From positions 16,314,501 to 16,378,500 of the forward strand of contig NC_092323.1 of NCBI RefSeq assembly GCF_036785885.1: a stretch of 64,000 nt of DNA, read 5' to 3'. The position numbers and the translations under genes were made by a program. Under the pieces are notes generated by a model, which saw only the letters and a program-made list of their open reading frames with translations, made no database searches and was not told the origin of the DNA. The stretch is from Coffea arabica (lineage: Eukaryota > Streptophyta > Magnoliopsida > Gentianales > Rubiaceae). Below, piece by piece: positions 5,656 to 57,965 of this stretch (position 1 is the stretch's first letter; each line of letters begins with the position of its first letter).

Positions 5656-8600
5656 ATGGCAAGCTTGAGGAACAAAGGTAATCCTCAACGTGCCATAGCA
5701 TGCAGTACAATGTCTTTTAAGTTATTTAATATTTGATAATATTTTCTATAGTGACGGTGTATTATTTACATTAGCGGGGTTTGGATACAGTATTCTTATA
5801 TCAAGAAAGAGTATTAAAATTTGAATAAAGGTTATGTGTCATGCATTGAAATCTACTTATACAATGAAATTTTTGTATAACCTTGGTGATTTTAACCTTT
5901 AATATTTGTAGTTTAGTACCTTGACAATGTTCTCTTTGTTCTTGACATTTTGATATTTGGTTGGCCAATAGAAATAAGTAGACCTATAACTTGATTTTTC
6001 AAAGTCAAAAATTTCAATGAAATAGTAAATGCAACATTTCCATTTCTCTAAAACAGGGCATTTTTTGAAGCTAAAATTGGAAAAAATGATTTTCTTTTTG
6101 GATTTTAATGATTCTTCAACTGATGAAAATGAGCGCGAGGCTATCAATATGAAAAGCCAAGATTGTAAAATTACTAATACTGTCCAAGTTAGGAATTCAA
6201 CTTTATTACTATTGAGGTTACATAGTTACCATTCTGAAAAGTTCTTGTAGCAATTTCGGCATTTGCAGTAAAGTAAAGAAACCTTTTGATTCTTTGTGCT
6301 CTTTATAGTCTTCAAAACTGTCGTATGATAATAAATAATGAATAGTTTTATCCTTCTTATGCCTGGAACATTAGCATCTTCTTTTTGATCCATGTATAAG
6401 CAGGAGAAAAAGGTAGCAAGGCTGCAACTGGAATTGTTCCCGAGATGCTGACTGAGGAAAACTACGAGGACTGGAAAGTTTGCTTGAAACATTATTTGGT
6501 TGGGCATGGACTTTGGGGTGTTGTATCTGGAAAAGAGCCTGAACCAAGTAAAGATAAGAAACAAGAACACGAGGAATGGAAGAAGAAGAATGCATTGGCT
6601 TTACATGCCATTCAACTTTCATGTGGACCAGCCACATATGCAAAGTTTAAAGAAGCTCACATTTGTGCACGAGTTGCATGGAATCATTTGGCTGAGAAAA
6701 TCAAGCGCCCATACAAGTTCAAAGAGCATGATCATGAAGAGGAAAACCATGTGGAAGATGAAGGTAATTTACAATTATGAAGCTGATGAAATTTGTTTTG
6801 CTTTTGTAAGTTTAATCATCTGATCAAATTCTCATTCTTGAGACAGATTAGTTCTTAATCAGAGAAAGTTCTTTTGAACAGTTCGTTCAAATAGGCAAGT
6901 CATATATCTATACATTAATTCAATCTTAACATGTCCAGGAGCAAGAGAGTACCTTAATTATGGGTACTTGTACAAAGCAATTGAAGAAGGAAAGTGCCAT
7001 TCTATAAAGAGTTTCCTGGAGCAGGATCCAAATGCTGTTAGGGCAAGAGTTTCTTCACATAGGGACACAGCTCTTCACATTGCCATTCTGGTTGGTCATA
7101 TCAAGATTGCAGAAGAGTTGGTGAAGAAAATGCAGCCACAAGACTTGGAATTGATAAATGAGTATGGTGCCACAGCACTTTCTCTAGCTGCAATAAGTGG
7201 TGCAACAAAGTTGGCAAAGGCAATAGTAGAAAAAAATCCTAAGCTAGTTAGCATGGAAAATGACCATGATGATGGACAGCTCCCTGTCATTGTCGCTGCT
7301 TTGTATGGTCAAAAGCGTATGGTTCGATACCTATACAAGGTGACCTCAAAGGACGAACTTCAGGGTGAGAGGGGTGCTACATTGCTCAATTGTTTGATTA
7401 CAGCTGAAATTTTTGGTAAGACTGTATGCGAAGAGACCTATAATATTATGTAATATTCGGATGCCAGCCTCATGTTGCAGGAAGTTCAGAGTTTGACACG
7501 TCACAGCCCCCTGTCCAATACCTAAACATTTTAATTTTCGTTATTCCTGATTCTACTCTAGCCATGGTTTTGACCATTTTCCTCCTTCAATATGCTTTTA
7601 AGAGAAAGGATAGACTTTACACCACAAATTTTCATATTCTGTGATGCATTTCTAATCTTGTTTTTGGATTGCTGCAGATGTTGCCTCAATGTTGCTGAAA
7701 CGATATCCGCATCTTGGTGTCACCCCAGATCATAATGGCGACTACACCCTCAGAATATTGGCTCACAAGCCTTCTGCATTTCCTAGTGGAACAAAACTTG
7801 TCCTCTGGAAAAAGTGGATCTACTCCTGTGAGTATATACTTCTACTAATTGCAAATTTATATACCAATCATCCTTAAACTCACATGTAGTGCTGCAATAT
7901 TCTGTATCAATCATCTATGGCATTCAAGAGCTACTCATAAGAGGGTGTATAATATTGTGGTAGGTGTAATGGTGCATTCTCCTTGGGAGAGTCCAAGAGG
8001 TTCCCAAACTTCTCATGAAGATGACAGCATTGGAAGTCACAGGTCAAGTGTGATGGATTTCCACAACATTGACATTCCAGATTCGAGTGATGGGGATCTG
8101 AGATTGCATGAAGGCCATTCCATTCGTCACTGTGGTATATACCCGAAATCTGCCCGCCTCTCTTTCCAGCTGCTAAAATGTATTTGCACTGGAATAGGAA
8201 ATCTTTTTGATAGCAATGTCAAATGGCAAACTTGTTTACACCCTATAAATTCAACTTTACAATGATGCTATATAAAATAGAAATGAATTTTTCTGCAATG
8301 AAATTAAGATATTCTTGCTGTTTGTTCAATGTTGAACAGATTAATGCAGGCAAACATGCATTTCTAGTACGAAAATATTGTAGGTAGTACTTTCTTGATT
8401 ATAGCCCATGGTAGGAAAAAGACAATTACATTAGGAAGTTTGGTTGGAATGCAAAAAAAAAAAAAATCCCAGATACTGCATTCCAAACGAATAAAATTAC
8501 AGAAAATTTGTGTTAAATACTCTATGTTGTACTTACCTGATTTCTTGAAACCTTTTTTGTCTGAAGCATCTTCATGAATTTTGAGTTTTCATCTTGTGTT

Positions 8601-9933
8601 CTGTATGATCTAATGATAATCTTTGCAGTAATCAGTCTCTTGCATAGGATGGTGTGGAGCCTCTTAAGATGCCTTGGTTGGTCTCATCTACTGGTGCTGT
8701 ACTTTCAATAAAACTTCTGATAATTTTTTTACTGATCTGTTGTTGATTTTCCAGTCCCAGATATTAAGCATATACATGACAGGAAATTGGTTCATGATGA
8801 AGCAGTTAAACTCCTGAGCTGTATATTTAAGGAAATCAGACACATGAGCAATTCACAACTTGAAAAGATGGAGATAGACAAAGTTCTATATGAAGCTATC
8901 AAGCATGGAATTGTTGAGTTTGTCGTAGAAATTCTCAAATTTACCCCAGAAATTATATGGAGAAAAGACAAAAAGGGAAGAACAATTTTTGCACATGCAA
9001 TTGTGCTTCGCCAAGAGAAAATTTTCAGTCTCATATATGGTTTGGAAACACAAAGATGTATAATGGCACGTCGACATGATGTATTTGGGAACAATTATTT
9101 GCACTTAGCAGCAAAATTGTCCCCTCAATCCCAACTCGACCGGGTCTCGGGAGCAGCTCTACAAATGCAGAGGGAACTACAATGGTTTAAGGTTGTATCA
9201 ATTTTCTTATTAGTCATCTCATATTGTTTTTTACCCTCAAAACAACTTTGAGACCTGCATAGCAAATAGTAGGAATTTGTCTGGTAACCTCATGATTACA
9301 TTGTAGGAAGTTGAAAGTATTGTCCAACCAAAGCTGAAGGAAGACATGAATGATAACAAGAAAACCCCATCCGCATTATTCACTGACGAGCATAAGGTGC
9401 TGGCCAGGGAGGGGGAGAGATGGATGAAAAATACTGCAGGATCAAGTATGATTGTGGGCACTCTAATCTCTGCAGTCATGTTTACTACAGCATTCACTAT
9501 TCCAGGCGGTAATAGCCAATCAGGCCTCCCAATCTTGCTGGAAACTCAAACAAAGGCTTTCTTGATATTCATGATTTCAAATGCACTATCCATGTTCACA
9601 TCTTCCACTTCAATACTGATGTTCTTAGGCATTCTTACAGCAAGATATGCAGAAGAAGACTTTCTCAAGTCCTTACCTACAAAACTAGTAATCGGGCTCG
9701 CATGCCTATTCTTTTCCATAGTCACCATGATGGTATCTTTTGGTGCTGCTATATATCTGATGTTGAACAAACAGCTAACTTGGGTTTTCTATCCCATTGT
9801 TGCTCTCTCCACTGTTCCAGTTGCTTTTTTCTCATTGTTGCAATTCCCTCTCCTTGTTGAGATGATTAATCGAACATATGGATCGGGCATCTTTGGCAAT
9901 TCCAATGGAAAACTCTCATGGTGTGGTTTATGA
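5656..9933 (+). CDS. gene 1: gag-like/ankyrin-repeat/PGG-domain membrane protein
   Basis: Proposed exons: 5656-5677, 6404-6763, 6939-7415, 7678-7827, 7964-8134, 8636-8677, 8755-9191, 9307-9933. They join in frame to 761 codons plus stop. Exon 1 reads MASLRNK and ends in phase 1 like the first exons of genes 2, 3 and 5. Residues about 20-120 (LTEENYEDW, LWGVVSG, NALALHAIQLSCGP) resemble the copia-gag DUF4219/UBN2 fold. Residues about 130-250 hold four ankyrin-like repeats and about 430-540 hold more. The last exon is a PGG domain (PGG at about 619-621) with about four hydrophobic spans. The family (ACD6/ITN1 type) consists of membrane signalling proteins in defence or stress; any role here is inferred. 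This is the most diverged copy: its intron 3 is 262 nt with stops, and it keeps an intron inside exon 6. Exon 6 part a needs the acceptor at 8634-8635, because the acceptor used by the other copies would hit a stop. Exons 1 and 6a are the least certain. Confidence 0.8.
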
Positions 9934-12630: not shown

Positions 12631-15600
12631 ATGACGAAAGTTTCAGGTTAGTCTAAAAACATGCACATTTTTTAGTCTGTATATTTGCTCATTTAGGTTA
12701 TGAATGTTCACTTATGATTACCATAAAAGTCATGCTATGTTCCAGTTGTTCCTTTTCTGCGCATGCAACAGCAGTTCTAGTATTCAGTACATCACTCTGG
12801 TTTCATCTAACCAGTTCTAATGTTCAAGCAACGAAAAAGTCCTGTTCCAGATATTGGAGACAATAATTGGAACTTTTTACTCGAGTCATATAGAGTGATA
12901 ATAATGCCTAACACATCTAGGTAAGTTGAAGGGTTAAATTGCATACTTTTTATGTACAAGTTGTTTTTATTGTAGTTTTTCCTAACTAATTGTGCTTGAT
13001 AGTTCTTAAAGCATTGGGTTGATATCAATCTAGGGAGTAAAATTTACAGCGAACTACTCACACACTGTATAGACTTGCTCTGCAGTTAGGACTGACAATA
13101 TGGGTTTGTGCAGACTTGATCTTGGTCAGTTCAGCTCGAAAAATTTCGAGTCGAGTCTCACACGCTAGGTCGAACATAATTTTGGGCCTAGATATGAAAT
13201 CGAATTTTATTGCAAGCGAAGTTTGGATTTTATTAAATTCTGTTGAGTTTATCTCACATCGATTGTGAAAGGAATAGGGTGCTATGTTATAAGTGCAAGG
13301 AAAAGCCCCTTGAGCTAGCTTTTGAGGTGAGAAGGCCCAATAGCATCCAATTTTTTTGTGAGTCGACGAGTGTGAACATCATCACTAGATTTTTTTTTAA
13401 TAGTGAGCTTGGGTTTGATAAAATTCAATTCAAAATGCCCAATTGAAAATCCCATTTTCTGTCTCATGCATGGAGAGATTGTGTTTGATAGATAATATGG
13501 TGTAAGTGACACCTTAAAATTACATCACCTAATTCTTTTTTTTTTTTTTTTTTGAGGGACATCACCTAATTCAATTTGGGACTCGTTTTTTATTTTGAAC
13601 AGTTGTCATAGACAATTATATATGATCCTTCATGGGTAAGAATCTCCCAATTTAGATTTTTGTGTGGTTAAAACAAAATTTTAGAGAAATTATCAAAAGG
13701 AGATGACAATTCCCAGTACAGCTATTTGCATTCCAGAAATAATGGAATTAATTTAAGAAGATGTCTCAATATAATGGTGCAATAAATCTGTGTGAAAAAA
13801 TCCTATGATAAACTAAGGGGCTGCTTGGTAAGAAGGTTTTGGAATCAAGAATTGGAATCACTCTCATAATTGTTGCTTGGCAAAAAGGTATGGGGATTGA
13901 AGAGTTGGAATGAAATCTAGAAATGTGAGTATGTGACTCTGCATCCCTGACTATATTGGGAAAGTTTTAGTTGATTACCAAATTTGACTTTTAAATGACA
14001 AACAGAAAAATTTCGATCTAGTCACTGCAGTTGACCAGACTTCTAGTGATGAGGTTTGGGGGTGATTTTGACAGTAACAAGTATAAACTTCTTGAACCAA
14101 AGAAGATGATCAACATTCTGCTATTTTGGGTATCTAGTTTCAACTTACATCTATCTTTGATAGGAAAATCTTGGAAATAAATATGATTTCAAGAGGTTAA
14201 AGTAGTAATTAGGCTTGAATTTCTCTTGAGCTTGAAAGCTGATTGGTGGTGGTAAGGAAGAAATGCTGTCTGTCGACGCCCAAAACCGGGGGGAATTTGC
14301 AGAAAGGGGGAAAAAAAGACAGGAAAAAGTGTTAAAAAATATATCTTATTTGATACCCAAACTTAAAAAGATTTTCCCAACCAATACATATTGTAATGAT
14401 AACATAGGAGGGTTTTTCAAAAAAAAAAAAAAAAAAAAAAAACAGGGTTGTACCTATATTAATTATTTTTGTATGATACGAATTCCAATTCGGGAGCATG
14501 AACCATGCACCCAATAAGCGTAATTTAGATATCTTAACTAGTAGTTGGATACCGTCTAAAAATCATTTATGTAAATTATCTTGTGTAATTGGTGCAAACA
14601 ATTGTTAAGGCCTTGAATTCCTGACTATGGAACTTTGCCAACACTATATCATGACTTAGTACAGAGCCAACACCAGTTGGTTCAATTGATAAGAACAGAT
14701 CACTTTTTTATATAAGCTAAAGGAACTAAGGTGTTTGCTAGTTGTCTTTTGGCTAATGTGAATAAACTTGTTGATTATCTATCTTGGTTGTATCATTCGG
14801 TAATAGTGTCTAATTGAAATTGTGCATCCGCCTTTATATCTTGGACATTGGCATCCTTTAAGATAATGTATCTAAGCAGGAGATGATATAATTGGTAGAG
14901 CAGCAATAGGAATCGTTCCTGAGGAGCTCACTGAGGAGAACTATGAGGAATGGAAAAGATGCTTGGAACATTATTTGGTCGGTCATGGCCTTTGGGGTGT
15001 TGTTTCTGGAGAGGAGCAAGATCCTATAAACGATGAGAGACAAGAATATGGAGAAGAAAAGAAACAAGAACATGAGGAATGGAGGAAGAAGAATGCATTG
15101 GCCTTACATGCCATCCAACTTTCGTGTGGACCGGGCACATATGTTAAACTTAAGGAAGCTCACACTTCTGCGGAAGTTGCATGGAAGCATTTGGTGGAAA
15201 AACTGAAGCCCAACAAAATATTGGCGGAAGGTGATCCTGAAGATGAAAGCAGCTGTGTTGAAGAAGAAGGTAACTCTCGATGATGTTGCTATGAAATATT
15301 TATGGTTTCGCATGTAATTTTACATGTGGAATGAAGAGGTTCTCTCTCTTGGTCAAATTTTAAGAACAATATGGTTCATTTGATAGCTAACTTGAATCAT
15401 GTGGTAGCAGGAGGGAAGCATTCAGCGATTGCAGGTTTTCCATCTGTTCTTACTCTTATTCCATTTGATTTCTTTTCTTTTGCTCTTTTATCAGGCAATT
15501 CTTTGCTGTGGAATTTCTGTACTTTACTTCAAATGAAACTCCAATTCAATTGTGCAAGCTCTGTGTGCCAAATAATGGCGGACACTTGAGAGTTGTGAGG

Positions 15601-18600
15601 CCTAATTTACCCAAAAAAAGGCCTTGCAAAACATCTTCCACAGCTAGAATTTGTAATTAGTGATTTGCTTAGTATCCAATTACAATATTATTGCTCTTTT
15701 TCTGTTTCTCTGGACTTCTTGAACAGTTTATACTCATTCAGATTTCAATTGCTCATTAATTATGATAGATGACCATATTAGAGATATTATTCGAAACAAA
15801 TTCTAATGTTTACAGGACCAAAAGAGTACCTCCATTATGCGCCCTTGTACATAGCAATTGAAAAAGGCGATCTTCATCTCACAAAAAGTCTCCTTGATCA
15901 AGATCCAGACGCTGTTAGGGCCATAATTTCATCACATGGAGAAACTGCACTTCACTTTGCCATTCTAAATGGACACATGAAAATCGCAAAGGAACTGTTG
16001 AGGAGAATGGAACAAGCAGACTTGGAAATGGTTAATGACTATGGATGCACAGCTCTTACTCTTGCTGCAATCAGTGGTGAAAAAAAGTTGGCAAGGGCAA
16101 TCGTGAACAAAAATGATAGTCTACTTAGCAGGGAAAATGAACTTGATGATGGGCAGCTTCCTGTCATCGTGGCTGCTTTGTATGGTCAAAAGCATATGGT
16201 TAATTATCTATACTCGGTGACACCAAAGGGGCAACTACATCCAGAGGTGGGCAAGAACGGAGCTACACTGCTTAATTCCCTGATTACGGCGGAAGTTTAT
16301 GGTAAGATTATAGATGTAAAAGGCAGTATACCAATCTGCATCAAATCCTTCTTCAATATATGTGCCCCTAACCCCTTTCTGATTGCTACAGATGTTGCTT
16401 CAATGCTACTTCAACAATATCCAAAACTTGGTGTCACCCCAGATCATAATGGTGACTATGCTCTCAAGTTACTGGCTCACAAGCCATCTGCATTTCCCAG
16501 TGGAACCAAACTTGTTTTCTGGAAAAGATGGATCTATTCGTGTTAGTGTCCTTTTCCCATTTCAACTTTACCTTTTAATCAAATACCAGGGTAAATGTTG
16601 TGATAATGATCACTGACTTGTATATAATGAAGAAAAATATTCTGCTCTCTAATTCAGTGATAAGGAGAACAATCTAAGAACAATAGCCATTATGCATTTC
16701 TTTTTTCTTTTTTAACTTTCTATGAATTTTAATTATCATTCCAGTATGAAATTTGAATTTTGATTGTCATGTCAGTATAAAAACTTCCAACGACAAGAAT
16801 ACCAACTTGCTGTATATGGTAAATGTGTGCTAGTGTTGGAGAATGCTACTTTATACCATCTGTTTATGCCCCAGGTCTAATGGAACATTCTCCATGGGGG
16901 AGTCCAACAGATTCTGCTGGAGATGAGATAGCAAATACAAAAAAAGCAAGCATGATTGGAGACCACAGCATTGAGATTCATCATTCTAGTGATGGTGAGA
17001 AGAATTTGACAGGGAATCAAGGCCTATGGATTACTAGCTGTGGTATGTCAAATATTAAATTTCTTTTTCCAAAATTCCTTCCATAGCTAAAGACTTTTGG
17101 GGTGGGAATCTCCTCTCTAGCTTTTATTTTTTCCGTTTTTCCTCCTCAAATTTTGCTGTAGCTTGATGACAAAATGGAGTGCGATGTATTTTAGTAGGTC
17201 AAATAGTATGACAAGCGATTAGGGCCGCCAAGAGGTTTTTGGGAGTGAGTTTTGACAAGTCCAAACGTGGCTTACAAAAGAAATAAGATCTTTGGGCTTT
17301 TGGGCTTAGTGTTTTGCTATATTAAGCTCACACTCATATCACAAATATGTTGAGGCTTTTGGTTTACTTCGGATTTGGCCTAAACTCATAATAAAAGCAT
17401 AATTATATCAATATATATATATATATTTGACATTAACATAATGGTATATAGGATATTACATTTTTACATTGTAATATACAAAATATATATACTTACATGT
17501 AAAATTATCTGGGCCAAGCTTTAGTTATGCAGAGCCGAATGAAGCCGTGGCTCAACTCGCAATTAAATCGACTCTTATATTTAGGTTCAAACTATACTCA
17601 CACCACCTAATATCTAAGGCTTATCCCAAAATTTTTGAGTAGATCGACCGGAGCTTAGACGAGTCCAACTCATTTGCAGTCCTTTGTGTGATGGACTATC
17701 TATGATTGGGAGAAATCAGAGGAAAGTTCAAGTTTACTAGGGTTAAGGTCCTGTTTGATAGTTCAATTCATTATTTAAATTTAATGGATTCAGATCTTAA
17801 TATATTAAGACGCGTTTGATAATTAAAAATTAAATATCTAAATTAATTAAGTGGCACTATACCCTTAGACATCTTCCTCAGTTTTGTTGCACTAAGGGTT
17901 TAGTGCTTGAGAGCCTTAGCACTATTTCGTTCTTTTGAAGAAACAAATGGGTTTTAATTAAGAATTTTTAATTGTTTTAATTTATTTATTGGAAATATGC
18001 TTTTGCAAGTGATCTATCAATTCTATCCCCAAAATTTGTAATTGAGTTATTAGATGGTTTGATTCACAACTGAGAGTTCATTTCTAGGATGTAAAAGCTT
18101 GGGTTTTTAAATGTGAAGGACCAATTTGCTTCGTTTTAAATGTGAGGGACGAAAAGAATATTTTTATGAAATGTGAGGGATGAAACAGGTCATTTTCTCT
18201 AAAATATATATACTTACATGTAAAATTATTTGGGCCAAGCTTGAATTGTGCAGAGTCGAATGAAGCCGTGGCTCAACTTACGATTAAATCGACTCTTATA
18301 TTTTGGTTCAAAACATAGTTATTAAAATCAACCCGGGCATCAACCTGGCAGGAGGACCGGGTTGGTGGGTCAATAGTTCAATCAGTGGGTCACAGATTGA
18401 ACCGTTGGGTCACACTATATAATAAAAAAAATATAGTATAAATAAATAAACATATAAATTATAATCTAAATATAGAAATTCATAAATGTTAACAAACCAT
18501 AACCTATTCATGTTTCAAAGTTCATATACACAAGCCATACCCATACATGTTTCTTAATTCATGGATTCATATTGATATTATATACAAATATAAATGATAA

Positions 18601-21600: not shown

Positions 21601-23989
21601 GTCTGAAGCATGAATAACACTACAGGCTTTCCATCTCATTTAATTCATTCTATGTATATTTGTTTTCCTGCAGTACTGAAGGTTTTGCATGGACTCGGTT
21701 GGAGCATATTAAGATGCCTCGGTCTGTGTCATGACAGGAAATTGATTCATAAAGATGCCATTCAACTCCTAACCTGTATATTTAAGGAAATTGAGACATT
21801 GAGCATGAAAGAACTTGAAGAGATGGACATCGATAAAATTTTATACGATGCGATTGAACATGGAATCGTCGAGTTCGTTGAAAAAACTTTCAAATTTAGG
21901 ACTGGAATCATATATAAAAGAGACAAAAAGGGCAGAACAATTTTCTCACATGCAATTGTGCTTCGCCAAGAGAAAATTTATAGCCTTATATATGCCTTGG
22001 GAACAAGAAAGAGCATTCTAGCACGTAGGCATGATTTTTTCCAAAACAATTTCCTACATTTAGCAGCCAAGCTGTCTCCGTCGTCTCAACTTGACAAGGT
22101 TTCGGGAGCAGCTCTTCAAATGCAAAGGGAACTACAATGGTTTAAGGTAAGCAATTTAATTCAAAGTCAATATCCTATTTTATCTTAGGGTCTGTTTGTT
22201 TGAACTGAAAATCTTTTCCAGAAAATTTTTCTTCAATTTCTGGTGTTTGTCTGCAAAAGAGGTCAGGAAAATTTTTCTGGTAGAAAATCTTTTACATAAC
22301 TTGGTGTAAAATGACTTCCAGAATTAAGATATGGAAGTTATTTTCCAACAACTATCGCGACTTATCAGTCTCCTTGGCGCTTGGCTATTGTACAAAACCA
22401 TAAGTACCATACAACAGAGATCAAATCAAGAGCAACGTCCCTGCGCTTGCTTCTGCAAATCCCACAACTTTCCACCTCTAGTTTATGTTCCTCCCTACTA
22501 TTCCTTTTCTCTTGTGCCACACAAACACATTTATGGGCTTTGCATTGAGAAGTTTTGGAGAAGGAAAAAAAATGAAGCCAATGGAGGCAGGAGGAGCATT
22601 TTTAGAAGAAGAGTTAATTACAATGACGCGCAACTGGGTTTGAGAGATTTTGACTTCCTAGTTCTGTTCTTTGATTTATTTTTTGGGACTTGAAATGATT
22701 TGGATTGGGGATTGTTTGTGGTGGCTGACGAGGTGGGTAGAGGTAATGATAATTAGTAGTAGCACTTAGCAAAAGAGAAATCCGGGGATAATATTATCGT
22801 TGGAGGATTTTAATTTTTTTGGAACATTTTCTTAAAATTGCACCAAATATCAGAAAATGAAGGGAAAATTGGATATTTTCCAGGAAAGGATTTTCATTGA
22901 AAATGTTTTCTTAGGGAAAATATTCTACATTGAAACAAATAGACCCTTAGTCTACCACATTTTCGTGTCATTTGTTTTCGTTTTCATGTCTTATGAAACT
23001 CCAAGAATTTTGGCTTTACGTCTCATCAGAATATGCAGTGGAAAATCAACATACTGCTGCAAAAAAGTTTTGCGTTAGATTTGTAGCATTTTTCTGATAT
23101 GTTGCCTAAACTCATGCCACATAAGAAATACGACAGTCTTTATTATAGCTCCGCAAAAAATGAGGCAGTTTTGTGGCACAATTAAATGTTGCGAACGTAC
23201 TTGTGGCATCTATAGGTGTCGCAATGACGGTCAGACTTTCTCTATGTTGCAGCTTTTTTGTCATTATGCCAAGACATAGAGATATAAGAACTACAATAAT
23301 TCTTTACCTAATTGTATTTTCCTAGTAAGACTTTGTTCCTGACAACAATTGTTTTGTAGGAAGTTGAGAGTATTGTACAACCAAGGATGAAGGAAGAATT
23401 GAATGCTAGTAATAAAACGCCTTCCGCCCTCTTTTCTGAAGAGCATAAGGTGTTGGCTAAGGAAGGAGAGAGATGGATGAAAAATACAGCAGGATCAAGC
23501 ATGATTGTGGGAACTCTCATTGCTGCAGTCATGTTTACAACAGCTTTCACGGTTCCAGGTGGTAATGATAGTAAAACAGGGCTCCCTGTCATGCTAGAAA
23601 CTCAATCAAGAGTATTTTTGATTTTTATGGCATCAAATGCACTGTCGATGTTCACTTCTTCAACATCAATTCTAATGTTCTTGGGGATTCTCACTGCACG
23701 TTATGCAGAAGGAGATTTTCTCAAGTCCTTGCCCACAAAGCTAATATTTGGAATCACATGCTTGTTTGTATCGATAGTCACCATGATGGCATCATTTGGT
23801 ACTGCTCTATATCTGATGCTGATCGAACAAGTAGCTTGGATTTCCTACCCAATCATAGCTTTCTCTGTTATTCCAATAGCTCTTTACTCATTGTTGCAAT
23901 TCCCCCTTCTGGTTGAGATGATCGGTCGCACTTACGGACATGGTATCTTCGACAAACCTAAAAAGAAACTCGATAGTTTTGAAACCTGA
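12631..23989 (+). CDS. gene 2: gag-like/ankyrin-repeat/PGG-domain membrane protein
   Basis: Proposed exons: 12631-12646, 14880-15269, 15816-16301, 16392-16541, 16875-17042, 21674-22146, 23360-23989; 770 codons plus stop. The 16-nt exon 1 encodes MTKVS and one base of the next codon, and is identical in genes 3 and 5. The gag-like module spans residues about 20-125 (LTEENYEEW, LWGVVSG). Four ankyrin-like repeats follow from about 140 (PLYIAIEKGD, ETALHFAILNGH, CTALTLAAISG, LPVIVAALYGQ). A Ser/Asp-rich linker is encoded by exon 5, more ankyrin units by exon 6 (GRTIFSHAIVLRQEK, FLHLAAKL) and the PGG domain by exon 7 (PGG at about 627-629, four hydrophobic spans). Membrane location and a defence/stress role are inferred from the ACD6/ITN1 family. 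Intron 1 is 2.2 kb, and intron 5 is 4.6 kb because of inserted transposons. Intron 3 is 90 nt, stop-free and in frame, so retention would still give a protein. Confidence 0.85.
13522..13572. mobile_element. 23-bp poly-T insertion with 14-bp target duplication
   Basis: ACATCACCTAATTC occurs at 13522-13535 and again at 13559-13572, bracketing a run of 18 T followed by GAGGG. The long perfect duplication and homopolymer suggest target-primed reverse transcription that aborted almost at once, with the poly-A tail read on the other strand. It lies in intron 1 of gene 2. Confidence 0.6.
14419..14442. repeat. long poly-A run
   Basis: An uninterrupted A homopolymer of more than 20 bases in intron 1 of gene 2. 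The open frames that cross it on both strands are homopolymer artefacts. Confidence 0.8.
17480..18312. repeat. direct repeat pair of about 110 bp in intron 5 of gene 2
   Basis: 17480-17595 and 18200-18312 share a block beginning AAAATATATATACTTACATG and continuing through GCCGTGGCTCAACT. A more diverged relative lies near 31005 in the matching intron of gene 3. The 600 bp between them look like later insertion. Another transposon-like stretch (about 18320-18810, containing GACCGGGTTGG and ACCGGTTCAACTG) follows. Confidence 0.6.
19911..21160. mobile_element. Mutator-like non-autonomous transposon, 1250 bp
   Basis: The termini are inverted repeats starting GGGATAATTTCAGAAACC on both strands. 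They are followed by further inverse similarity (CCTGAGGTTTCT), giving arms of roughly 80 bp. The flanks are TTTTATGAA on the left and TTGTATGAA on the right, a 9-bp target duplication with one mismatch. Nine-bp duplications and long inverted repeats fit the Mutator superfamily. No transposase is visible. It sits in intron 5 of gene 2. The inverted-repeat element at 49348-50317 looks like a distant relative. Confidence 0.75.
22188..22946. mobile_element. PIF/Harbinger-like MITE, 759 bp
   Basis: The left end GGGTCTGTTTGTTTGAA is matched by the inverse of the right end, GGGTCTATTTGTTTCAA. It is flanked by the trinucleotide TTA on both sides, as in PIF/Harbinger insertions. The same intron position in gene 4 (near 45740) has an uninterrupted ATCTTAGTGT with one TTA, an empty site. 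The 120-codon frame at 22331-22693 lies inside the element and shows no transposase motif. Confidence 0.75.
23027..23260. repeat. possible CACTA-type fragment in intron 6 of gene 2
   Basis: Subterminal-type short repeats (GTGGCA/TGCCAC-like) and a fold-back formed by ATCAGAATATGC and TTTCTGATAT. The same material is in intron 6 of gene 3 (32960-33240) and, with a deletion, gene 5 (57070-57245), but not in gene 4. Element class is uncertain. Confidence 0.35.
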
Positions 23990-26817: not shown

Positions 26818-29800
26818 ATGACGAAAGTTTCAGGTTAGACCAAAGAAATACATGTTTTTTTGGTTCCCTCATTTTATTCTACATATAAGTGCTCAGTTGT
26901 GATATTTTGTTCACTTATGATCAGCATAAAAGTCATGCTGTTTTCCATTTACCCCATTTGGTTTTTCTTTTTCTTTTTTTTTCCTATTTTCTATTTTTCC
27001 TCTTTTCATTCCATTGGATCAATTGTAAGCAGCCAAAGAGGTGCAAAGTCATATTTCTGAATTGAGTGACTTTTCTACTTATGACTTAAATTTTCCATTG
27101 TTAAAATGGCCAATTTCGCTCTTAACAATAGAACCAATCTATTCCCTAATATTTGTTTCTGAACGATTTGATGTACATGTGTATTCATATACTATGTTAA
27201 GTTGTAATTTAGGTGTTTTAATAGTTATCCTGATGCATCCATTAGAATTTTTTTAATACAAATTATAGGCACCCATTTAAAAAATCTTGTAATGTTGAGT
27301 TCGTGGAATCTCTTTTGTCAACCAAACATGTGATAAAGTTCCTTTTTCTTTACCTCATTTTACTTCACTTTTCCGCCAAACAAACAGAACCTTTTGGTAA
27401 CTATAGGAATATGAAACAAAAAAAAAAACTATAGGAATATGAAGCTTTGCCTAAACCCTGCCGCGAGGAGTGGGACGTGGGTCTGTAACTACATTTTGGG
27501 GGCCTGCACCGTACATTGTGAGGCCGTCAATGTCTCTGCATGGCCACCTTCAAAATCAGTCCTGTTTGATTTACAGTGAAATATCACCATGCATTCCTTA
27601 ATTAGATGTAGAATCACGGGAGAGTCAAAATGAGTAGTTGAGGCTAATTCTTGAAAGGACGATCAGTTGAACTCACTGCTCTTCTGGGAATCCATTGTTG
27701 CAAACAGTAACTGGGACTTTAGTATATTAGTCTTGCAGTATTTCTTGACTTTTCCGTAGTCCATAATTCCAAATGGCCAAAATAAGGAAGAAATCTGATG
27801 GGGTTGTGAGGTTGTTTAATCAGTTAATGAAGTTCAGGACAAATGCCTTCATTTATTTCTTGACGAATTGAAAGGAAATTTGTTACTGGTTCGTTATTTC
27901 ATCTTACCGCTTGGTTTCAAGATCTCTAGCTTTGGTTGGTATGCTTCTGAACAATGACCTAATTTTGCATTTCTTTTTTTTTTTTTTTGGTTTTGGGGTA
28001 GGTCTAATTTTGCATTTTCAAAGCTGCGTCTAGCGTTTTCTGATTATTGTTCGAACAGATAGCCATAACATCTTACGAAAGCAAATTCGTATACCTCACT
28101 TTTTATGTGTTTTCTTTATGTGGAAATGCCCTTTTTGAGCCCTTCTAGCACAGCCTCCAAAAGTGCTCTAATGTCCTCCAATTTGACACACAGTTTAAGC
28201 TAAAGGGACCAATTCTAGTTGCTTTTTGACTAATAGGAATAAACTTGTTTATTATCTATGTTCTTTGTAAGTTCTGGTAAGTGTTTTAATTAAATTGTGC
28301 ACCCGCCGATATATCTTGGACATTGGCATCCTTTAAGATTATGTATCTAAGCAGGAGATGATAGAATTGGTAGAGCAGCAATCGGAATTGTTCCTGAGGA
28401 GCTCACTGAGGAGAACTATGAGGAATGGAAAAGATGCTTGGAGCATTATTTGGTTGGTCATGGCCTTTGGGGTGTTGTTTCTGGAGGGGAGAAAGATCCT
28501 ATAAACGATGAGAGACAAGAATATGGAGAAGAAAAGAAACAAGAACATGAGGAATGGAAGAAGAAGAATGCATTGGCCTTGCATGCCATCCAACTTTCGT
28601 GTGGAACAGGCACATATGTTAAACTTAAGGAAGCTCACACTTCTGCGGAAGTTGCATGGAAGCATTTGGTGGTAAAACTAAAGCCCAACAAAATATTTGC
28701 AAAAGGTGATCCTGAAGATGAAAGCAGCCGTGTTGAAGAAGAAGGTAACTCTCGATCATGTTGCTATGAAATGTTTAAGGTTTCACATATAATTTTAGAA
28801 GTGAATTGAAGAAGTTTTCTCTCTTCGACAAATTTTAAGAACACTATGGTTCATTCGATAAGTATTTTCAATCATGTGGTATCGGAGCAAAGTTATGATT
28901 CAGCAATTGCAGGTTTTCTTTATTTTTTTGCTTATTCCATTTGATTAGTTTTCTTTTGCTCATTTAGCAAGCAATTCTTCACTAGGGAATTTTTCTGTAC
29001 GTTGCTTCAAATAAAACTCCAATTCATCTAGCTCTGCTGTGCCAAACAATGGCAGAGACTTCAGAGTTGGGAGGCCTAATTTTCCAAAAGCTTAGAATAT
29101 ATCTTCCACATCTGGAATCTTCATTTAGTCATTGCTTAATATCCAATGACACTATTATTGCTCTTTTTCTGGACTTCTTGAAATTTTTATACTCGTTCAG
29201 ATTTCTATTGTGCCTTCTACGAGCTCATTAATTATGATAGATGACCATATTAGAGATATTATTCGAAACAAATTCTAATGTTTACAGGACCAAAAGACCT
29301 TCGCTATAGGCCCTTGTACATAGCAATTGCAACAGGCGATTTTGATGGCACAAAAAGTCTCCTTGATCGAGATCCAGGCGCTGTTAGGGCCATAATTTCA
29401 TCACATAGAGGAACTGCACTTCAATTTGCCATTCTAAATGGACACATGAAAATTGCAAAGGAGCTGTTGAGAAGAATGCAACCAGCTGACTTGAATATGG
29501 CTAATGACAATGGATGCACAGCTCTTACTTTTGCAGCAATCCGTGGTGTAACAAGGTTGGCAAAAACAATCGTGGAAAAAAATGACGGGCTTCTTATCAA
29601 GGAGAGTGACCTTATCGATGGGCAGCTTCCTGTCATAGTGGCTGCTTTGTATGGTCAAAAGCATATGGTTGATTATCTATACTCGGTGACACCAATAGAG
29701 TTATTTCGCCCAGAGGAGGGTAAGAATGGTGCTACACTGCTTAATTCCCTGATAACAGCAGAAATGTATGGTAAGATTGTGGATGCAAGAGGCAATATAC

Positions 29801-32800: not shown

Positions 32801-33974
32801 ACATTTAGCAGCCAAGTTGTCTCCATTGTCTCAACTTGACAAGATTTCTGGAGCAGCTCTTCAAATGCAAAAGGAAATACAATGGTTTAAGGTAAGCAAT
32901 GTAATTCAAAGTCAATTCGTAGTCATATGTTTTTGTTTTCATGTCTCATGAAACTACAAGAATTTTGGCTTTATGCGTCATCAGAATAATGCCGCGAAAA
33001 ATCAACATTCAGCTACAAAAAAAGGTTTTTGCGGTAGATTTGTGGCATTATTCTGATATGTTGCCTAAACTCATGCCCCATAACAAATACGACAGTCGCT
33101 TTTATGATGCTACAAAAAATGTATGTGGCACAATTTTAATGCTGCAAATGTACTTGTGGCAGGCATCTAATAGCGGCATTTATAGGTGTCGTAAGAACAG
33201 CCAAACTATCTCTATGTTGCAACTCATGTCACTGCGTCATGAAATAGAGACATAACAGCAGCAAGATTCTTTATTTACTTGTATTGTCCTAGTGAGAGAC
33301 TCGTCCTGACGTGAATTAGTTTGCAGGAAGTTGAGAGTATTGTACAACCAAGGATGAAGGAACAACGTAATGCCTATAATAAAACACCTTCTGAACTCTT
33401 TACTGAAGAGCATAAGGTGCTGGCTAAGGAGGGAGAAAGATGGATGAAAAATACGGCAGGATCAAGTATGATTGTGGGAACTCTCATCGCTGCAGTCATG
33501 TTTACAACAGCTTTCACAGTTCCAGGTGGTAATGATAGTAAAACAGGGCTCCCTGTCATGCTAGAAACTCAATCAAAAGCATTTTTGATTTTTATGGCAT
33601 CAAATGCACTGTCGCTGTTCACTTCTTCGACATCAATTCTAATGTTCTTGGGGATTCTCACCGCACGTTATGCAGAAGGAGATTTTCTCAAGTCCTTGCC
33701 CACAAAGCTAATATTTGGAATCACGTGCTTGTTCGTCTCGATAGTCACCATGATGGCATCATTTGGTACTGCTCTCTATCTGATGCTGATCACACAAGTA
33801 GCTTGGATTTCCTACCCAATCATGGTTTTCTCTGTTATTCCAATAGCTCTTTACTCATTGTTGCAATTCCCTCTTCTGGTTGAGATGATCAGTCGCACTT
33901 ACGGACATGGCATCTTCGAAAAACCTAAAAAGAAGCTCTATAGTTTTGAAACCGACACTACTACTACAATCTGA
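26818..33974 (+). CDS. gene 3: gag-like/ankyrin-repeat/PGG-domain membrane protein
   Basis: Proposed exons: 26818-26833, 28355-28744, 29288-29770, 29861-30010, 30336-30488, 32419-32891, 33327-33974; 770 codons plus stop. The order of parts is as in gene 2: MTKVS micro-exon, gag-like module (LTEENYEEW, LWGVVSG, NALALHAIQLSCGT), ankyrin repeats (PLYIAIATGD, TALQFAILNGH, CTALTFAAIRG), short linker, second ankyrin block and PGG domain with four hydrophobic spans. Compared with gene 2 it lacks one codon at the start of the ankyrin exon (PKDLRYRP) and five codons in linker exon 5. Intron 3 is again 90 nt, in frame and free of stops. No frame-breaking change is visible, so the gene may be functional. 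Its closest relative is gene 5, with which it shares the long intron 1 and promoter region. Function is by family inference only. Confidence 0.85.
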
Positions 33975-34178: not shown

Positions 34179-34645
34179 TCATGCCTATGGTTTGCTTTTG
34201 ATTGTTTGCCACATCAAATACTACTGCCTAATATTTAGCGTTGACACTATTTTAATTGGCTTTGCCGGGTTGTCTTACTCACTAGTAATGGATCATGTGC
34301 ACGCTTTGCACGCGAATATGATACTTTTAGATTTTTTTCTTAAAATTTTAGAAAATCACTTGTTTTGAAGGAATAAATGTAATTGAGACAAAAAAAAAAA
34401 AAAGTTCTCTTTTAAGTAACCAACACAATTGCACAAGTAATAAAGCATTCTTTGTCTCCAGAGCATTTTTTTTTATTTTGTAATAGTATCAATATTTTTG
34501 CTTTTCTATTAAATTTGGATAACCTAAATGTTCTCTTTTTTGTCTTTTTAGTTAAAATTTTTAACTTTTTGAATAATTTATTATTCTCCTTTAAGTCATT
34601 CTATGAATTTTTTGTTAGCTTTAATGAGTTTTTCTAATTATTTTC

Positions 34646-38325: not shown

Positions 38326-39355
38326 CTCCTGTTGAGAGTAGTTGTCTAATGGTATTATGCCTACGACGTATATGTTTAGACTTACCATTATATATGTTAT
38401 TCTGTGCTCTTCCAATTGCTGATTGATTATCACAGTGAATACATATTGGTGGCACAGGTTTTTCCCATTTTGGAATGTCTTCAAGGAAATGGTGGAGCCA
38501 TTCAGCTTCTTCTCCATATTTGTCCAAGGCAATGAACTCAGATTCCATTGTAGATCTAGCTACAATAGTTTGTTTAGAAGACTTCCAGGATACTGCCCCA
38601 CCGGCAAGTGTGAACACATACCCACTTGTGGACTTTGAATCTTTTATATCAGATATCCAATTTGCATCAGCATACCCTTCTAAAACAGCAGGGTATCTAG
38701 TGTAATGCAGTCCAAAGTTCCGAGTGTACCGTAGGTATTTGAGTACCCTTAAAATTGCTTTCCAATGATTAGCACTCGGATTGCTTGTAAATCTGCTCAA
38801 TTTGCTTACTGCATATGCAATGTCAGGTCTAGTACAACTTATTAAATACATTAGACTGCCAATGATTCTTGAGTATTCTACTTGAGAAATACTCTCTCCT
38901 CTATTCTTAGATAGATGGAAACTATTGTCTAATGGAGTTCTTGCAATTCCAAAATCATTCTTATTGAATTTTTCTAGAATCTTGTCCACATAATGAGTTT
39001 GGCTCAAGACCAACCCGTCTGATATTCTTGTAATTTTAACTCCTAAAATTACATCAGCGAGCCCCATATCTTTCATGTCAAATTTTGAATTCAACATGTC
39101 TTTGGTAGACTTAACCATTTTGTCATTACTACCAACAATAAGTATGTCATCTACATAAAGACATAAAATGACATAGCCATGTTCTGTTTCTTTAGTGTAG
39201 ACACATTTGTCACACTCATTTATTTTGTATCCATTAGTTATCATTGCATTGTCGAACTTTTCATGCCATTTCTTTGGCGCTTGTTTTAGTCCATACAATG
39301 ATTTGACTAATTTGCAAACTTTATTTCCTTTTTCCGGAGTTATGAAACCCTCAGG
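38326..39355 (-). pseudogene. copia reverse transcriptase C-half and RNase H
   Basis: After the stop at 39356-39358, the frame continues with [10 protein letters not shown], the reverse transcriptase catalytic motif [10 protein letters not shown] and [18 protein letters not shown]. The RNase H part follows with [36 protein letters not shown] and [16 protein letters not shown]. It then runs into antisense PPR sequence at 38325, so the end of RNase H and the rest of the element are lost. Family identity is secure; function is not expected. Confidence 0.85.
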
Positions 39356-40168
39356 TTACTCCATGTAGATTTCTTTATCTAAATCACCATTTAAGAAAGC
39401 CGTCTTTACATCAATTTGATGTATCTCCAAATTTCTTAATGCAGCGATAGCAAGAATTATTCTGATAGAATTTATTCTCGTAACAAGAGAATAAGTATCA
39501 AAATAATCCAAACCTTCTTGTTGCTTGTATCCTTTGATTACAAGTCTGGCTTTGTACTTATCGACAGAGCCATCAGGTTTCATTTTCCTTTTAAAGATCC
39601 ATTTGGACCCTAAAGGTCTACAACCAGGAGCAAGATCCACTAACTCCCATGTATGATTCTGTAAGATAGAATCAACCTCACTTTTTATTGCTTCTTTCCA
39701 CAAAAATCCTTCAGAAGAACTTACAGCTTCTGTATAGGTTTGTGGTTCCTTTTCTAATAGAAAAGTTGTAAAATCATCTCCAAACGATTTTTCCACTCTA
39801 GCCCTTTTGCTACGTCTCGGTTCATCTTGTTGAATCAAGTCATGATCATGTTTTTCTTGATTCATAACTTCATGTGTTCGTTTTGATGAACTTGATGCAC
39901 CATTCGATTTACAAGGAAACACATCTTCAAAGAATGAAGCATTCCTTGATTCCATTATCGTATTTTTGTGTATATCCGAAATTTCTGAATTATACACAAG
40001 AAATCGATAAGCAGCACTATTATGTGCATAGCCTATAAAGATACAGTCCACAGTTCTAGGACCTATCTTTATTCTCTTTGGTGCTGGAATAGCTACTTTT
40101 GCAAGACACCCCCACACTTTCAAGAATTTGTAAGATTGTCTCCTACCTTTCCATAACTCATAAGGAGT
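39356..40168 (-). pseudogene. copia integrase C-terminus and reverse transcriptase N-half
   Basis: The frame carries the integrase tail (KVWGCLAKV, GYAHNSAAYRFLVYN), the variable linker and the N-terminal reverse transcriptase (WKEAIKSEVDSI, GSKWIFKRKMKPDGSVDKYK, ARLVIKGYKQQEG, FLNGDLDKEIYME). It ends at an in-frame stop (39356-39358) where related elements continue without interruption. Confidence 0.85.
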
Positions 40169-41428
40169 TTAATCTTGTTTTTTTCGGGGTACCCTATTTA
40201 AAAGGTAATTGCTTGACAAAATAGCTTCACCCCACATATTTTGTGGCAATCCTGAACTTAGTAACATCGCATTCATCATTTTTTTTAGTGTGCGATTTTT
40301 CCGTTCAGCAACACCATTCGATTGTGGTGAGTAAGGTGCAGTTACTTCATGAACAATTCCATATTTTGCACAATAATCACCAATAGGTGTTTCATATTCA
40401 CCACCTCTATCACTTCTTAACCTTTGAATTCTCCGGTTAAGTTGATTTTCAACTTCATTCTTGTATAGAATGAATTTTTCTATGGCTTCATCTTTACTTT
40501 TGAGTAAATACAAATAACAGTATTTTGTGCAATCATCAATGAAAGTGATAAAATATTTATTACCACCTCTTGTTTGAACAAATTTCAAATCACAGACATC
40601 TGTGTGAATCAATTCAAGGGGTTCGGTGTTTCTTTCAATTGTTTGAAAAGATGACATTGTTAATTTTGCTTCTACGTAAATCTCGCATTTATGGTTTGAA
40701 TTGATGTGAAAGGAAGGAATATGATCCAAGTTAATTAGTCTACGCAAAGTATCATAATTAACATAACCTAGTCTACCATGCCATAAATTGGAAGACTCAA
40801 TCAAATAAGCAGAAGACTTATTCTTATTATTCACAATGGTCATTACATTCAATTTGAACAACCCATCGGTTGTATATGCTTTCCCTACATACATCCCAGA
40901 TTTGGATAATATAACTTTATCCGATTCAAAAATCATGCGAAAGCCATGCTTGTTCAGCAATGATCCAGAAACAAGGTTCTTGCGGATTTCTGGCACATAC
41001 AGGACATCGTTCAAAGTCAATGTTTTGCTAGAAGTCATCTTTAGCAACACCTTCCCTTGACCTTCAATAGCAGATGAGGCAGAGTTCCCCATGAACATTT
41101 TTTCACCTTCAACTTTTTCGAAGGTAGTAAACAAGTCTTTGTTTGTGCAAACATGTCTTGTAGCTCCAGTGTCAATCCACCATTCTTTCGGATTTGACCC
41201 TATCATATTTACTTCAGAAACCATAGCAGTCAGGTTCATGTTTTCCATGTCTCCCCCGATTCTATCAAGCAAGTTTGCTTCATGCTTCTTCTTCTTTGGA
41301 AGCTTACATTCAGTGGACTTGTGACCTTTTTTGTCACAGTTGAAGCACTTCCCTTGGAATTTCTGCTTAGAGATTTTCCCTTTTACCCAAAGATTTCGAG
41401 TTGGCTTTTTGCCTTTGGAGTTTTGCCC
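40169..41428 (-). pseudogene. copia zinc knuckle, protease and integrase core
   Basis: A CCHC zinc knuckle (CFNCDKKGHKSTEC) lies near 41309-41350. The protease motif WWIDTGATRHVC follows, then the integrase zinc-binding region (LWHGRLGYVNYDTL ... CEIYVEAK) and the catalytic core (HTDVCDL, FITFIDDCTKY, LRSDRGGEY, GVAERKNRTL). The second cysteine of the integrase HHCC finger appears to be replaced by tyrosine. A stop at 40169-40171 interrupts the frame. Confidence 0.85.
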
Positions 41429-42172
41429 TTACTTATACTCCACAATATTTGCTTTAGCATCAACAGAAGTTGTTGCCTTGCAATCAGAACCCCTGTTGTC
41501 TTCTTCAATTCGAAGTCTAACAATAAGGTCCTCTATACTCATCTCTTTGCGCTTGTACTTGAGATAGTTCTTGAAATCCTTCCACCCAGGAGGTAGCTTC
41601 TCAATAACAGCAGCTACTTGAAAGGTTTCACTCAAAATCATACCTTCAGCTAGAATCTCATGCAAGATAATCTGAATTTCTTGCACTTGACTGATAACAG
41701 TTTTGGAATCCACCATTTTATAGTCTAGAAATTTTTCAACGACAAATTTCTTTGCCCCAGCATCTTCGGTTTTATATTTTCGATCTAAGGATTCCCACAA
41801 TGCCTTCGCCGTCTTATGTATTTGATACACGTTATACAGCGAGTCATGCAAGCAGTTCATGACATAATTTCGACAAAGGAAATCGGAGTGCTTCCAAGCA
41901 TCAATAGCATTGACAGCTTGTGCATCAGTTAAGCCTTCAGGCAGCTTTGGAGCATCCTCACTTAAGAATCTCGAGAGATTCAATGTTGTCAAATAGAACA
42001 ACATCTTTTGTTGCCATGTCTTGAAGTTCGAGCCATGGAACTTCTCAGGTTTCTCACTATGGTTGGTAGAAACCATAGGAGTAATCTTTCCTTCAGGTTG
42101 TTTCACAATTGTGCCAGAGGCAGAGGCATCAAAAGTAGATGTGTTGGTTTCTCTTCCTGTATTGTCAGCCAT
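41429..42172 (-). pseudogene. copia gag (UBN2-type) region
   Basis: The 247-codon frame starts [10 protein letters not shown] and contains [35 protein letters not shown] and [12 protein letters not shown], typical of copia gag. It stops at 41429-41431 just before the zinc knuckle, so gag is separated from the rest by a stop codon. The NF-x2-W ... LW arrangement resembles the N-terminal module of the ankyrin-PGG genes in this window, at the level of fold rather than close identity. Confidence 0.8.
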
Positions 42173-42196
42173 TGAGAACCGAGTCTATTTTAAGAT

Positions 42197-42730
42197 TGTT
42201 AGTGAAATAATAAAATAGGCCGATACAAAAGAGAAGAATAAATATAACCTAGAAAGAAAGTAATAATCGAAAATAACAATAATAACAATCCGAGGCTTGT
42301 GAGTACAATTTTCTTAAAACAGATTCGCCCCCTCCAGGTAGAGTGCTCGAGGTTGAGTAGGCGTCTGTCTCCCAGGATACAACGGATTAAAGGTGAATAT
42401 GTCAGCACCAAACTTTCTTCACCACAGCGAACTCGAACTAGAACAATATGGAACACTATAAAAGATGAAGATGCAAGAAGGAAAAAGAGAGAGAGAGCGC
42501 GCCTTCTTTTGAAACAAAAAGAGATATTTATAGATGCTGGCTAAGGGTGACTGTTAGAAATTGGCAACAAGTGTTAAATTCCAGATAATTATCTTCACGT
42601 TTATCAAAGGACCACATTCATGTACATACATGTATCTCAATAAGATAACTCCAAAATCATGTATTAAGTACATGTATCCTATCCAAAATCATGTATCAAT
42701 AATTAATACACATGAATCCTATATACATGA
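42197..42730 (-). repeat. copia 5' LTR (outer border uncertain)
   Basis: Non-coding sequence upstream of gag in the element's own orientation. The inner border fits CTAACA ending at 42197 on the minus strand. A TATA box (TATAAATA, plus-strand positions 42525-42532) is correctly oriented for minus-strand transcription. With the 3' LTR missing, the outer end cannot be fixed by comparison. Confidence 0.5.
42525..42532 (-). promoter_or_regulatory. TATA box in the copia LTR
   Basis: TATAAATA on the minus strand, about 350 bp upstream of the gag start codon, in the position expected for the U3 promoter of the LTR. Confidence 0.5.
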
Positions 42731-42828
42731 ATGAATGATAGATAATTATTCTGGATTCTTTCAAGAGTGCCATTATGAGAACAAATTTTCTCATTCACTC
42801 TACAATGGATATAGCTATTTTTTCAACA

Positions 42829-57300: not shown

Positions 57301-57965
57301 CGTGAATTAGTTTGCAGGAAGTTGAGAGTATTGTGCAACCAAGGATGAAGGAAGAACGTAATGCCTATAATAAAACACCTTCTGAACTCTTTACTGAAGA
57401 GCATAAGGTGTTGGCTAAGGAGGGAGAAAGATGGATGAAAAATACGGCAGGTTCAAGTATGATTGTGGGAACTCTCATCGCTGCAGTCATGTTTACAACA
57501 GCTTTCACAGTTCCGGGTGGCAATGATAATAAAACAGGGCTCCCTGTCATGCTAGAAACTCAACAGAAAGCATTTTTGATTTTTATGGCATCAAATGCAC
57601 TGTCGATGTTCACTTCTTCAACATCAATTCTAATGTTCTTGGGGATTCTCACTGCACGTTATGCTGAAGGAGATTTTCTCAAGTCCTTGCCCACAAAGCT
57701 AATATTTGGAATCACATGCTTGTTCGTCTCGATAGTCACCATGATGGCATCATTTGGTACTGCTCTCTATCTGATGCTGATCAAACAAGTAGCTTGGATT
57801 TCCTACCCAATCATAGTTTTCTCTGTTGTTCCAATAGCTCTTTACTCATTGTTGCAATTCCCTCTTCTGGTTGAGATGATCAGTCGCCCTTACGGACATG
57901 GCATCTTCGAAAAACCTAAAAAGAAGCTCTATAGTTTTGAAACCGACACTACTACCAGCATCTGA
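51313..57965 (+). CDS. gene 5: gag-like/ankyrin-repeat/PGG-domain membrane protein
   Basis: Proposed exons: 51313-51328, 53125-53514, 54056-54541, 54636-54785, 55110-55271, 56540-57012, 57318-57965; 774 codons plus stop. The MTKVS micro-exon matches genes 2 and 3. The gag-like exon (LTEENYEEW, LWGVVSG) is 390 nt as in its sisters. The ankyrin exon reads PLYIAIATGD, ETPLPFAILIGQ (an unusual Pro in place of the normal ALHFA pattern) and CTALTFAAISG. The PGG exon has TVPGGN and four hydrophobic spans. Intron 3 is 94 nt because of four extra bases before the acceptor, so here retention would shift the frame and stop early, unlike in genes 2-4. No other disabling change is visible. A family role in membrane signalling or defence is inferred, not shown. 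Confidence 0.85.
52675..52991. mobile_element. Mutator-type MITE, 317 bp, with empty site in gene 3
   Basis: The ends are GGGTTAATACCACTTTG and, inverted, GGGTTAATTTCACTTTG; the inverted similarity extends about 70 bp or more (CGATTACCCACTTCAGTC on both arms). The perfect 9-bp duplication TTTTGACTA is at 52666-52674 and 52992-53000. At the corresponding place in intron 1 of gene 3 (about 28222) the sequence reads GCTTTTTGACTAATAGG with a single copy, so this insertion postdates the duplication of genes 3 and 5. Confidence 0.9.

Follow-up and report, generated by a model that had tools for sequence, protein, structure and literature searches.

In a 64,000-nucleotide window of the Coffea arabica genome (C14:16314501-16378500), four ankyrin-PGG genes carry a second exon that is, on balance, probably a domesticated copia Gag fragment and may serve as an N-terminal-domain head on an ACD6-like channel. 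The module no longer belongs to a mobile element, as all 13 strong copies found across the whole 1.198-Gb assembly adjoin ankyrin and PGG matches within one tandem cluster. Fusions of this kind are already known; what is new here is the exon anatomy, the start exon, the truncation of the gag domain, the selection acting on it and its loss from one gene through a copia element.

The gag module and its distribution

The module forms exon 2, on the plus strand, of gene 1 (6404..6763, 360 nt) and of genes 2, 3 and 5 (14880..15269, 28355..28744 and 53125..53514, each 390 nt). These coordinates, given in the first-pass annotation, proved exact to the base, with AG before and GT after each exon, and the phase-1 borders it described are found in all four genes as an open frame with phase-1 ends. 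The likeness to copia gag and DUF4219, for which it had proposed a profile search, was recovered as well and is no accident: all four copies exceed the curated Pfam cut-offs of both PF14223 (Retrotran_gag_2; E from 2.5e-9, in gene 1, to 8.3e-8) and PF13961 (DUF4219; E from 3.6e-9 to 7.8e-9, the latter in gene 1; 35.5-36.6 bits vs a cut-off of 27). Retrotran_gag_3 stayed under its Pfam cut-off in these exons. The plus strand of the window holds five PGG matches, and tblastn places the module ahead of four of them.

Exon 2 covers PF14223 only from position 3 to position 71 or 72 of 172, while a copia gag elsewhere in the same genome (L039) covers positions 1-165 and the copia gag within the window, which has no DUF4219 match in Pfam, covers 4-167. 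By alignment, exon 2 ends where copia gag continues into its second half; by PF14223 coverage this C-terminal capsid half is absent, and, set against Copia and Ty1 (PMC11835246 and PMC8458377, both in part), it would correspond to the capsid C-terminal domain. At the other end, the NY..W motif starts at residue 20 of gene 1 exon 2 and at residue 19 of the L039 gag (numbered from the Met nearest the start of similarity), so that exon 2 appears to begin close to the gag start. The retained part would then be, by alignment, a capsid N-terminal domain of roughly the first 105 residues followed by an acidic linker, the latter seen as an acidic, fast-evolving tail that joins the gag core to the ankyrins. 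A zf-CCHC zinc knuckle was detected by Pfam neither in exon 2 nor in the gene 1 protein; in the in-window copia the corresponding match falls just under the cut-off (19.1 vs 20.8 bits). Of the proposal that a gag domain had been captured, the copia-gag homology stands, but only the N-terminal part of the domain was kept.

Direct similarity between exon 2 and the in-window copia gag is weak: shuffled gag sequences equalled the scores of two of the four copies (300 shuffles), and shuffled exon 2 reached the real scores 0 or 1 times in 2000. Searched against PDB sequences, alone or as an alignment, exon 2 gave E values of 0.8 or more and matched no solved capsid, and the in-window copia gag matched the Drosophila Copia Gag capsid (PDB 8s41, 8vvw) at E 5.2e-6. 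The structure model of exon 2, built from four sequences, is helical and weak (mean pLDDT 49.7). A scan of viral contigs for relatives of the module confirmed none.

Across the assembly there are at least 150 PGG matches (the best 150 of 220 candidates), and gene 2 exon 2 used as query gave at least 22 matches (the best 150 of 177 candidates), 13 strong and nine weak. The strong matches (71-100% identity) all lie in the tandem cluster, seven on C14 and six on C13, which we read as the other haplotype of the C14 cluster. The nine weak matches among those listed are copia-like, lie outside the cluster and share only 29-33% identity; three of them belong to long open frames (1035 or 1345 aa). Among the matches listed, the cluster has 14 PGG genes (eight on C14 and six on C13), 13 of which contain exon 2, the exception being gene 4 of the window, and no other listed PGG place has the module. 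DUF4219 gave at least 114 matches (the best 150 of 4941 candidates); among the matches listed, each of the 13 cluster copies has a PGG match at a distance of 3.0 to 10.4 kb, and for the other 101 the shortest such distance is 51.4 kb. A divergent second fusion elsewhere could have fallen outside these best-scoring sets. All 13 copies of exon 2 are open, and their lengths (354, 360, 375, 378 and 390, with the gene 7 end set at its splice donor) are all multiples of three. Between genes 6 and 7 lies a lone PGG fragment (L021, C14:16403897-16403962, query residues 183-204), probably a relic of another copy.

Exon anatomy, loss in gene 4 and origin of the fusion

All four window copies of exon 2 are closed upstream by an in-frame TAA and therefore need an upstream start. 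A tiny start exon of 16 or 22 nt, overlooked in the first-pass annotation, provides a start codon in the matching phase. Upstream of genes 2, 3 and 5, a conserved block contains ATGACGAAAGTTTCAG followed by GT, which offers a start codon and a phase-1 end; the resulting exon 1 (12631..12646, 26818..26833 and 51313..51328, respectively) is identical in the three genes and encodes MTKVS plus one base. Gene 1 has a different start exon, for which a short exon at 5656..5677 fits, encoding MASLRNK (the start codon and six further codons) plus one base, again ending in phase 1. In the fetched stretches, ATGACGAAAGTTTCAG-type start strings, the same or with 1-3 of 25 positions changed, occur in eight further genes, and the 24-base start string of gene 1 recurs on the other haplotype (C13:14740624), upstream of exon 2 of the C13 allele. 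Together these strings supply a start exon for all 13 module genes, and we infer that exons 1, 2 and 3 are spliced together, as the predicted junctions would allow.

With this start exon, gene 1 is open as a predicted protein of 763 aa that continues through exon 3 (6939..7415; ankyrin repeats, Ank_2 E 1.9e-21, phase-1 end), exons 4 (7678..7827), 5 (7964..8134) and 6 (8629..8676, which in gene 2 forms a single exon with the one after it), exon 7 (8755..9191; weakly ankyrin-like, Ank_2 E 0.0024 and so under the cut-off, phase-0 end) and exon 8 (9307..9933), which encodes the PGG domain (PF13962, E 2.8e-24), hydrophobic segments and the stop codon. Pfam places DUF4219 at residues 23-49 of this protein, DUF4219/gag at 23-106, Ank_2 at 138-229 and PGG at 593-706; in the spliced protein PF13962 scores E 1.8e-23 and the gag matches again exceed their cut-offs. 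Gene 2 is likewise open, with ankyrin repeats in exon 3 (15816..16301), after which exons 4-7 run to 23989, the last of them (23360..23989) encoding PGG and the stop codon, for a total of 770 aa. Gag, ankyrins and PGG thus share one frame in both genes under predicted splicing, as had been proposed. The claim that phase-1 introns extend through exon 6 also agrees with what we found: the first six exons of gene 1 have phase-1 ends and exon 7 a phase-0 end, and in gene 2 the ends of exons 1-5 are phase 1 and that of exon 6 is phase 0. Genes 3 and 5 have ankyrin matches in exon 3 (29288..29770 and 54056..54541) and PGG-coding matches at 33327..33938 and 57318..57929, all on the plus strand. The gene 1 intron between exons 6 and 7 (8677-8754) has no counterpart in gene 2 (21674-22146), and genes 3, 4 and 5 are also open across its place.

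Several other features were seen in the window. Intron 1 of gene 5 contains a 317-bp element (52675-52991) whose inverted ends measure about 111 bp and which is flanked by a target duplication of 9 bp, TTTTGACTA; it looks like a Mutator-type MITE, and the empty site in gene 3 lies around 28224-28232. A 310-aa open frame at 58877-59809 matches RVT_3 (reverse transcriptase-like, E 7.9e-17) and probably comes from a retroelement. Five 93-bp units stand in tandem at 34998-35460, and 35365-36054 and 36097-36783 form a duplicate pair that is about 81% identical.

Gene 4 is broken in both haplotypes by a copia element in exon 3, a cause of its module-less state that had been overlooked. The C13 allele of gene 4 retains exon 2 (14793411-14793788), and there the copia lies within exon 3 with an LTR region on each side and the 5-bp target duplication AAGAG flanking it; further damage is seen there, exon 3 matching in two frames and exon 7 being partial. 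In the window haplotype, exons 1 and 2 are gone as well: tblastn found no exon 2, and no exon-1-like string was found with up to five substitutions allowed. Here likeness to gene 5 begins at 42828, at the edge of an opposite-strand copia LTR. What remains of exon 3 (42829..43308, plus strand, ankyrin) begins at the AAGAG target copy (42829-42833) and is preceded, on the minus strand, by the LTR region (42185..42828; the LTR itself is about 630 bp, and on C13 both sides are present) and by a copia remnant (38340..42184) that has gag, integrase and reverse transcriptase in separate frames, as identified by Pfam and by matches to the C13 copy. No second LTR was found in 34200-38300 of this haplotype.

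Between the two LTR regions of the C13 element K is 0.034 (636 sites compared); with plant substitution rates of 1.3e-8 and 7e-9, this dates the insertion to roughly 1.3-2.4 million years ago. For the PGG exon of gene 4, dN is raised, at 0.101-0.116 against genes 2, 3 and 5 vs 0.020-0.039 among those three, as expected of a decaying gene. With the copia in exon 3 and exons 1-2 missing from the window haplotype, the module of gene 4 was lost by accident. Gain or skipping of a symmetric exon was considered for gene 4 and rejected, as the C13 allele keeps exon 2 and the copia sits in exon 3. The more general suggestion that the module can be gained or skipped without change of frame holds as far as its phase-1 borders go, but the sole natural loss was a copia insertion with deletion. 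Two further observations concern this locus. A PPR repeat fragment (37873-38349) adjoins the truncated copia and has no copy in the 17 fetched C13/C14 stretches. In gene 4 the open frame of the remaining ankyrin exon runs on into the antisense copia LTR, which includes an ATG (42735-43601), so that a chimeric LTR-ankyrin start is conceivable.

As to how the fusion arose, exon shuffling had been proposed. Copia gag has no introns, however, so intron-to-intron shuffling is excluded as a first step, and the borders of exon 2 are better explained by exonisation. A gag-less paralogue on C17 (48% identity to gene 2 in PGG and 39% in the ankyrin exon; no exon-2 match) has an ankyrin exon that, read by hand, can be preceded by a phase-1 intron, at the place which the module occupies in the cluster. 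The splice donor could be GTTGAG, at the end of a longer exon upstream, or the GTGTG that comes after ATGGCAG, a tiny start exon, also in phase 1. Under predicted splicing, this one gene fits insertion of the gag exon into a pre-existing phase-1 intron. A PGG gene on C22 was rejected as a guide to intron phase; it belongs to a distant subfamily, and its open frame starts near its ankyrin repeats. We envisage that a copia fragment inserted into the phase-1 intron separating the tiny start exon from the first ankyrin exon, that it became an exon there, and that the module later spread through tandem duplication.

Selection on the module

In its rate of evolution, the core of the module is close to PGG and slower than the ankyrins. 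The core was defined as columns 11-110, picked after the alignment had been seen, and the ankyrin and PGG exons were left untrimmed. In comparisons of gene 1 with genes 2, 3 and 5, dN/dS is 0.29-0.34 for the whole exon, 0.19-0.24 for the core and 0.84-0.92 for the tail, and dN is 0.118-0.132 in the core, 0.196-0.260 in the ankyrin exon and 0.134-0.139 in PGG. Core dN is below ankyrin dN in all six pairs, with at most 0.014 of 500 bootstrap draws reversed; for the whole exon, dN is clearly lower in only three of the six, and the gene 1 pairs give bootstrap values of 0.50, 0.09 and 0.07. Over the 21 pairs formed by the seven C14 genes, the whole exon has a dN/dS of 0.43, the core one of 0.32 and the tail one of 1.15, and 58 of the 100 core columns are invariant across the 13 copies.

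Among close pairs, the whole-exon dN/dS limits include 1 in two of three, and five allele pairs show 20.5 nonsynonymous vs 13.5 synonymous changes, so recent constraint is moderate. The core, bearing in mind that it was picked after alignment, is under purifying selection that is weak in young pairs and alleles. Among the close paralogues (genes 2, 3 and 5), ankyrin exon 3 (15818-16297 in gene 2, and its counterparts) has a dN/dS of 0.59-0.79 vs 0.23-0.27 for PGG, a pattern of varying ankyrins beside a steady membrane part, with wide limits.

Possible functions and comparison with known systems

As regards function, Copia N-terminal domains form the spokes of capsomers, with the C-terminal domains at the periphery (PMC11835246, in part), ACD6 is described as a peptide-regulated calcium channel whose ankyrins are intracellular, and Lr14a as structurally similar to TRPA1 (PMC11387256, in part). 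From the spokes and the likeness to these channels we infer an assembling or recruiting head: the capsid N-terminal domain may act in the cytosol in self-association or partner binding, a mechanism we put forward tentatively, as an open proposal with a little less than even prospects. Such a head would gather ankyrin-membrane subunits much as the spokes do in Copia capsomers, and the gathering would govern how an ACD6-like channel with diversifying ankyrin repeats assembles or gates. With neither the C-terminal domain nor the nucleocapsid, closed capsids and RNA packaging would not be expected. RNA binding, one of the roles floated for the module in the first-pass annotation, we judge unlikely, as its net charge (K/R minus D/E) is -3 to -16 and it has no zinc knuckle. 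If the module does drive channel assembly, plants would offer an example of capsid architecture put to new use in signalling.

The same features invite other explanations. The module might serve as an integrated bait that mimics a host protein or a retroelement capsid bound by pathogen effectors or virus-like particles, with the ankyrin-PGG membrane part reporting the binding, much as NLRs with integrated domains do. NLR fusions with UBN2 and DUF4219 occur in several species, and AT4G00980 (DUF4219, UBN2_2, zinc knuckle) is listed as interacting with ATR1-group effectors (PMC4759884, in part); the tandem cluster and its faster-evolving ankyrins would also suit a bait. We nonetheless regard a bait as unlikely, given that the core is conserved rather than diversifying, as its invariant columns attest, and that ANK-PGG proteins are not NLRs. 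Less probable again is a restriction factor, whose N-terminal domain would co-assemble with related copia Gag and poison particles in the manner of Ty1 p22/p18 or Drt2. Copia-type precedents exist (PMC8458377; PMC10951436; both in part) and the same genome has long copia-like open frames with related gag, but both precedents use the C-terminal domain that exon 2 lacks, the nearest copia gags among the matches listed are only 29-33% identical, a membrane anchor would not be expected, and a copia inserted into gene 4 of this very cluster.

Explanations that deny the module a role fare worse. A neutral N-terminal leftover, carried along by duplication, would account for the near-neutral acidic tail (dN/dS 1.15) and the weak constraint in young pairs and alleles, and multicopy families may keep such fusions under relaxed selection (PMC12062965, in part); it is hard to square with a core dN/dS of 0.19-0.24 in older comparisons and with 13 of 13 copies open and differing in length only in threes, and we give it little credence. 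That exon 2 is an intronic gag relic outside the mature message is scarcely believable: a start exon of just 16 or 22 nt might raise the suspicion, but the upstream TAA forces an upstream start in the four window copies, a right-phase start exon is found at all 13 copies, and the frame is open in every one. A more adventurous extension of the assembling head, in which ankyrin-PGG channels would be membrane sensors of retroelement or viral capsids, a foreign Gag joining the ring and opening the channel, seems to us a long shot; if true, it would amount to a capsid-triggered plant immune signal.

Setting the preferred reading, a Gag-derived head on an ACD6-like channel, beside known systems, the cluster proteins share intracellular ankyrins and a transmembrane domain with the ACD6/Lr14a immune channels, and the C-terminal PGG/membrane domain typical of ankyrin-PGG (ACD6-type) membrane proteins is present in the gene 1 protein. 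The available part of PMC11387256 mentions no gag module in ACD6 or Lr14a. Capsid-forming Gags of the Arc/Copia type have two capsid domains and a zinc knuckle; of these exon 2 covers, by alignment, only the N-terminal capsid domain. Drosophila Copia Gag (8s41, 8vvw) represents the donor-domain family, of which exon 2 lacks the C-terminal half and the zinc finger. Ty1 p22/p18 and Drt2 are likewise fragments of Ty1/copia-family Gag that act in the host, but they keep the capsid C-terminal domain (PMC8458377; PMC10951436; both in part), whereas the cluster module keeps the N-terminal part and is fused to a membrane protein. NLRs with integrated UBN2/DUF4219 (PMC4759884, in part) similarly place a gag-type domain on a plant defence-type receptor; theirs is another receptor class, and here the domain is a conserved exon of a tandem family.

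Our full-text literature search, with most subscription papers outside its scope, found DUF4219 in six papers, no account of the function of the module, and no paper combining ankyrin, PGG, transmembrane, retrotransposon and gag; the available parts of PMC7465354 and PMC4419669 describe ordinary copia insertions only. The closest relatives are the plant ankyrin-DUF4219 fusions, whose existence had been anticipated and which are indeed published (PMC12062965, Mol Biol Evol 2025, in part): they occur in 362 of 362 Streptophyta proteins, a single fusion event was inferred, and they have the same domain pair, with the gag-type domain N-terminal to the ankyrins. The available main text of that paper names ankyrin and DUF4219, and PGG nowhere. 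What was in print as a co-occurrence of domains becomes, in the coffee cluster, a gene family whose exons are defined, whose disruption can be dated and whose constraint has been measured. Removal of a single symmetric exon would thus serve to test what a captured capsid domain does in a plant membrane protein.
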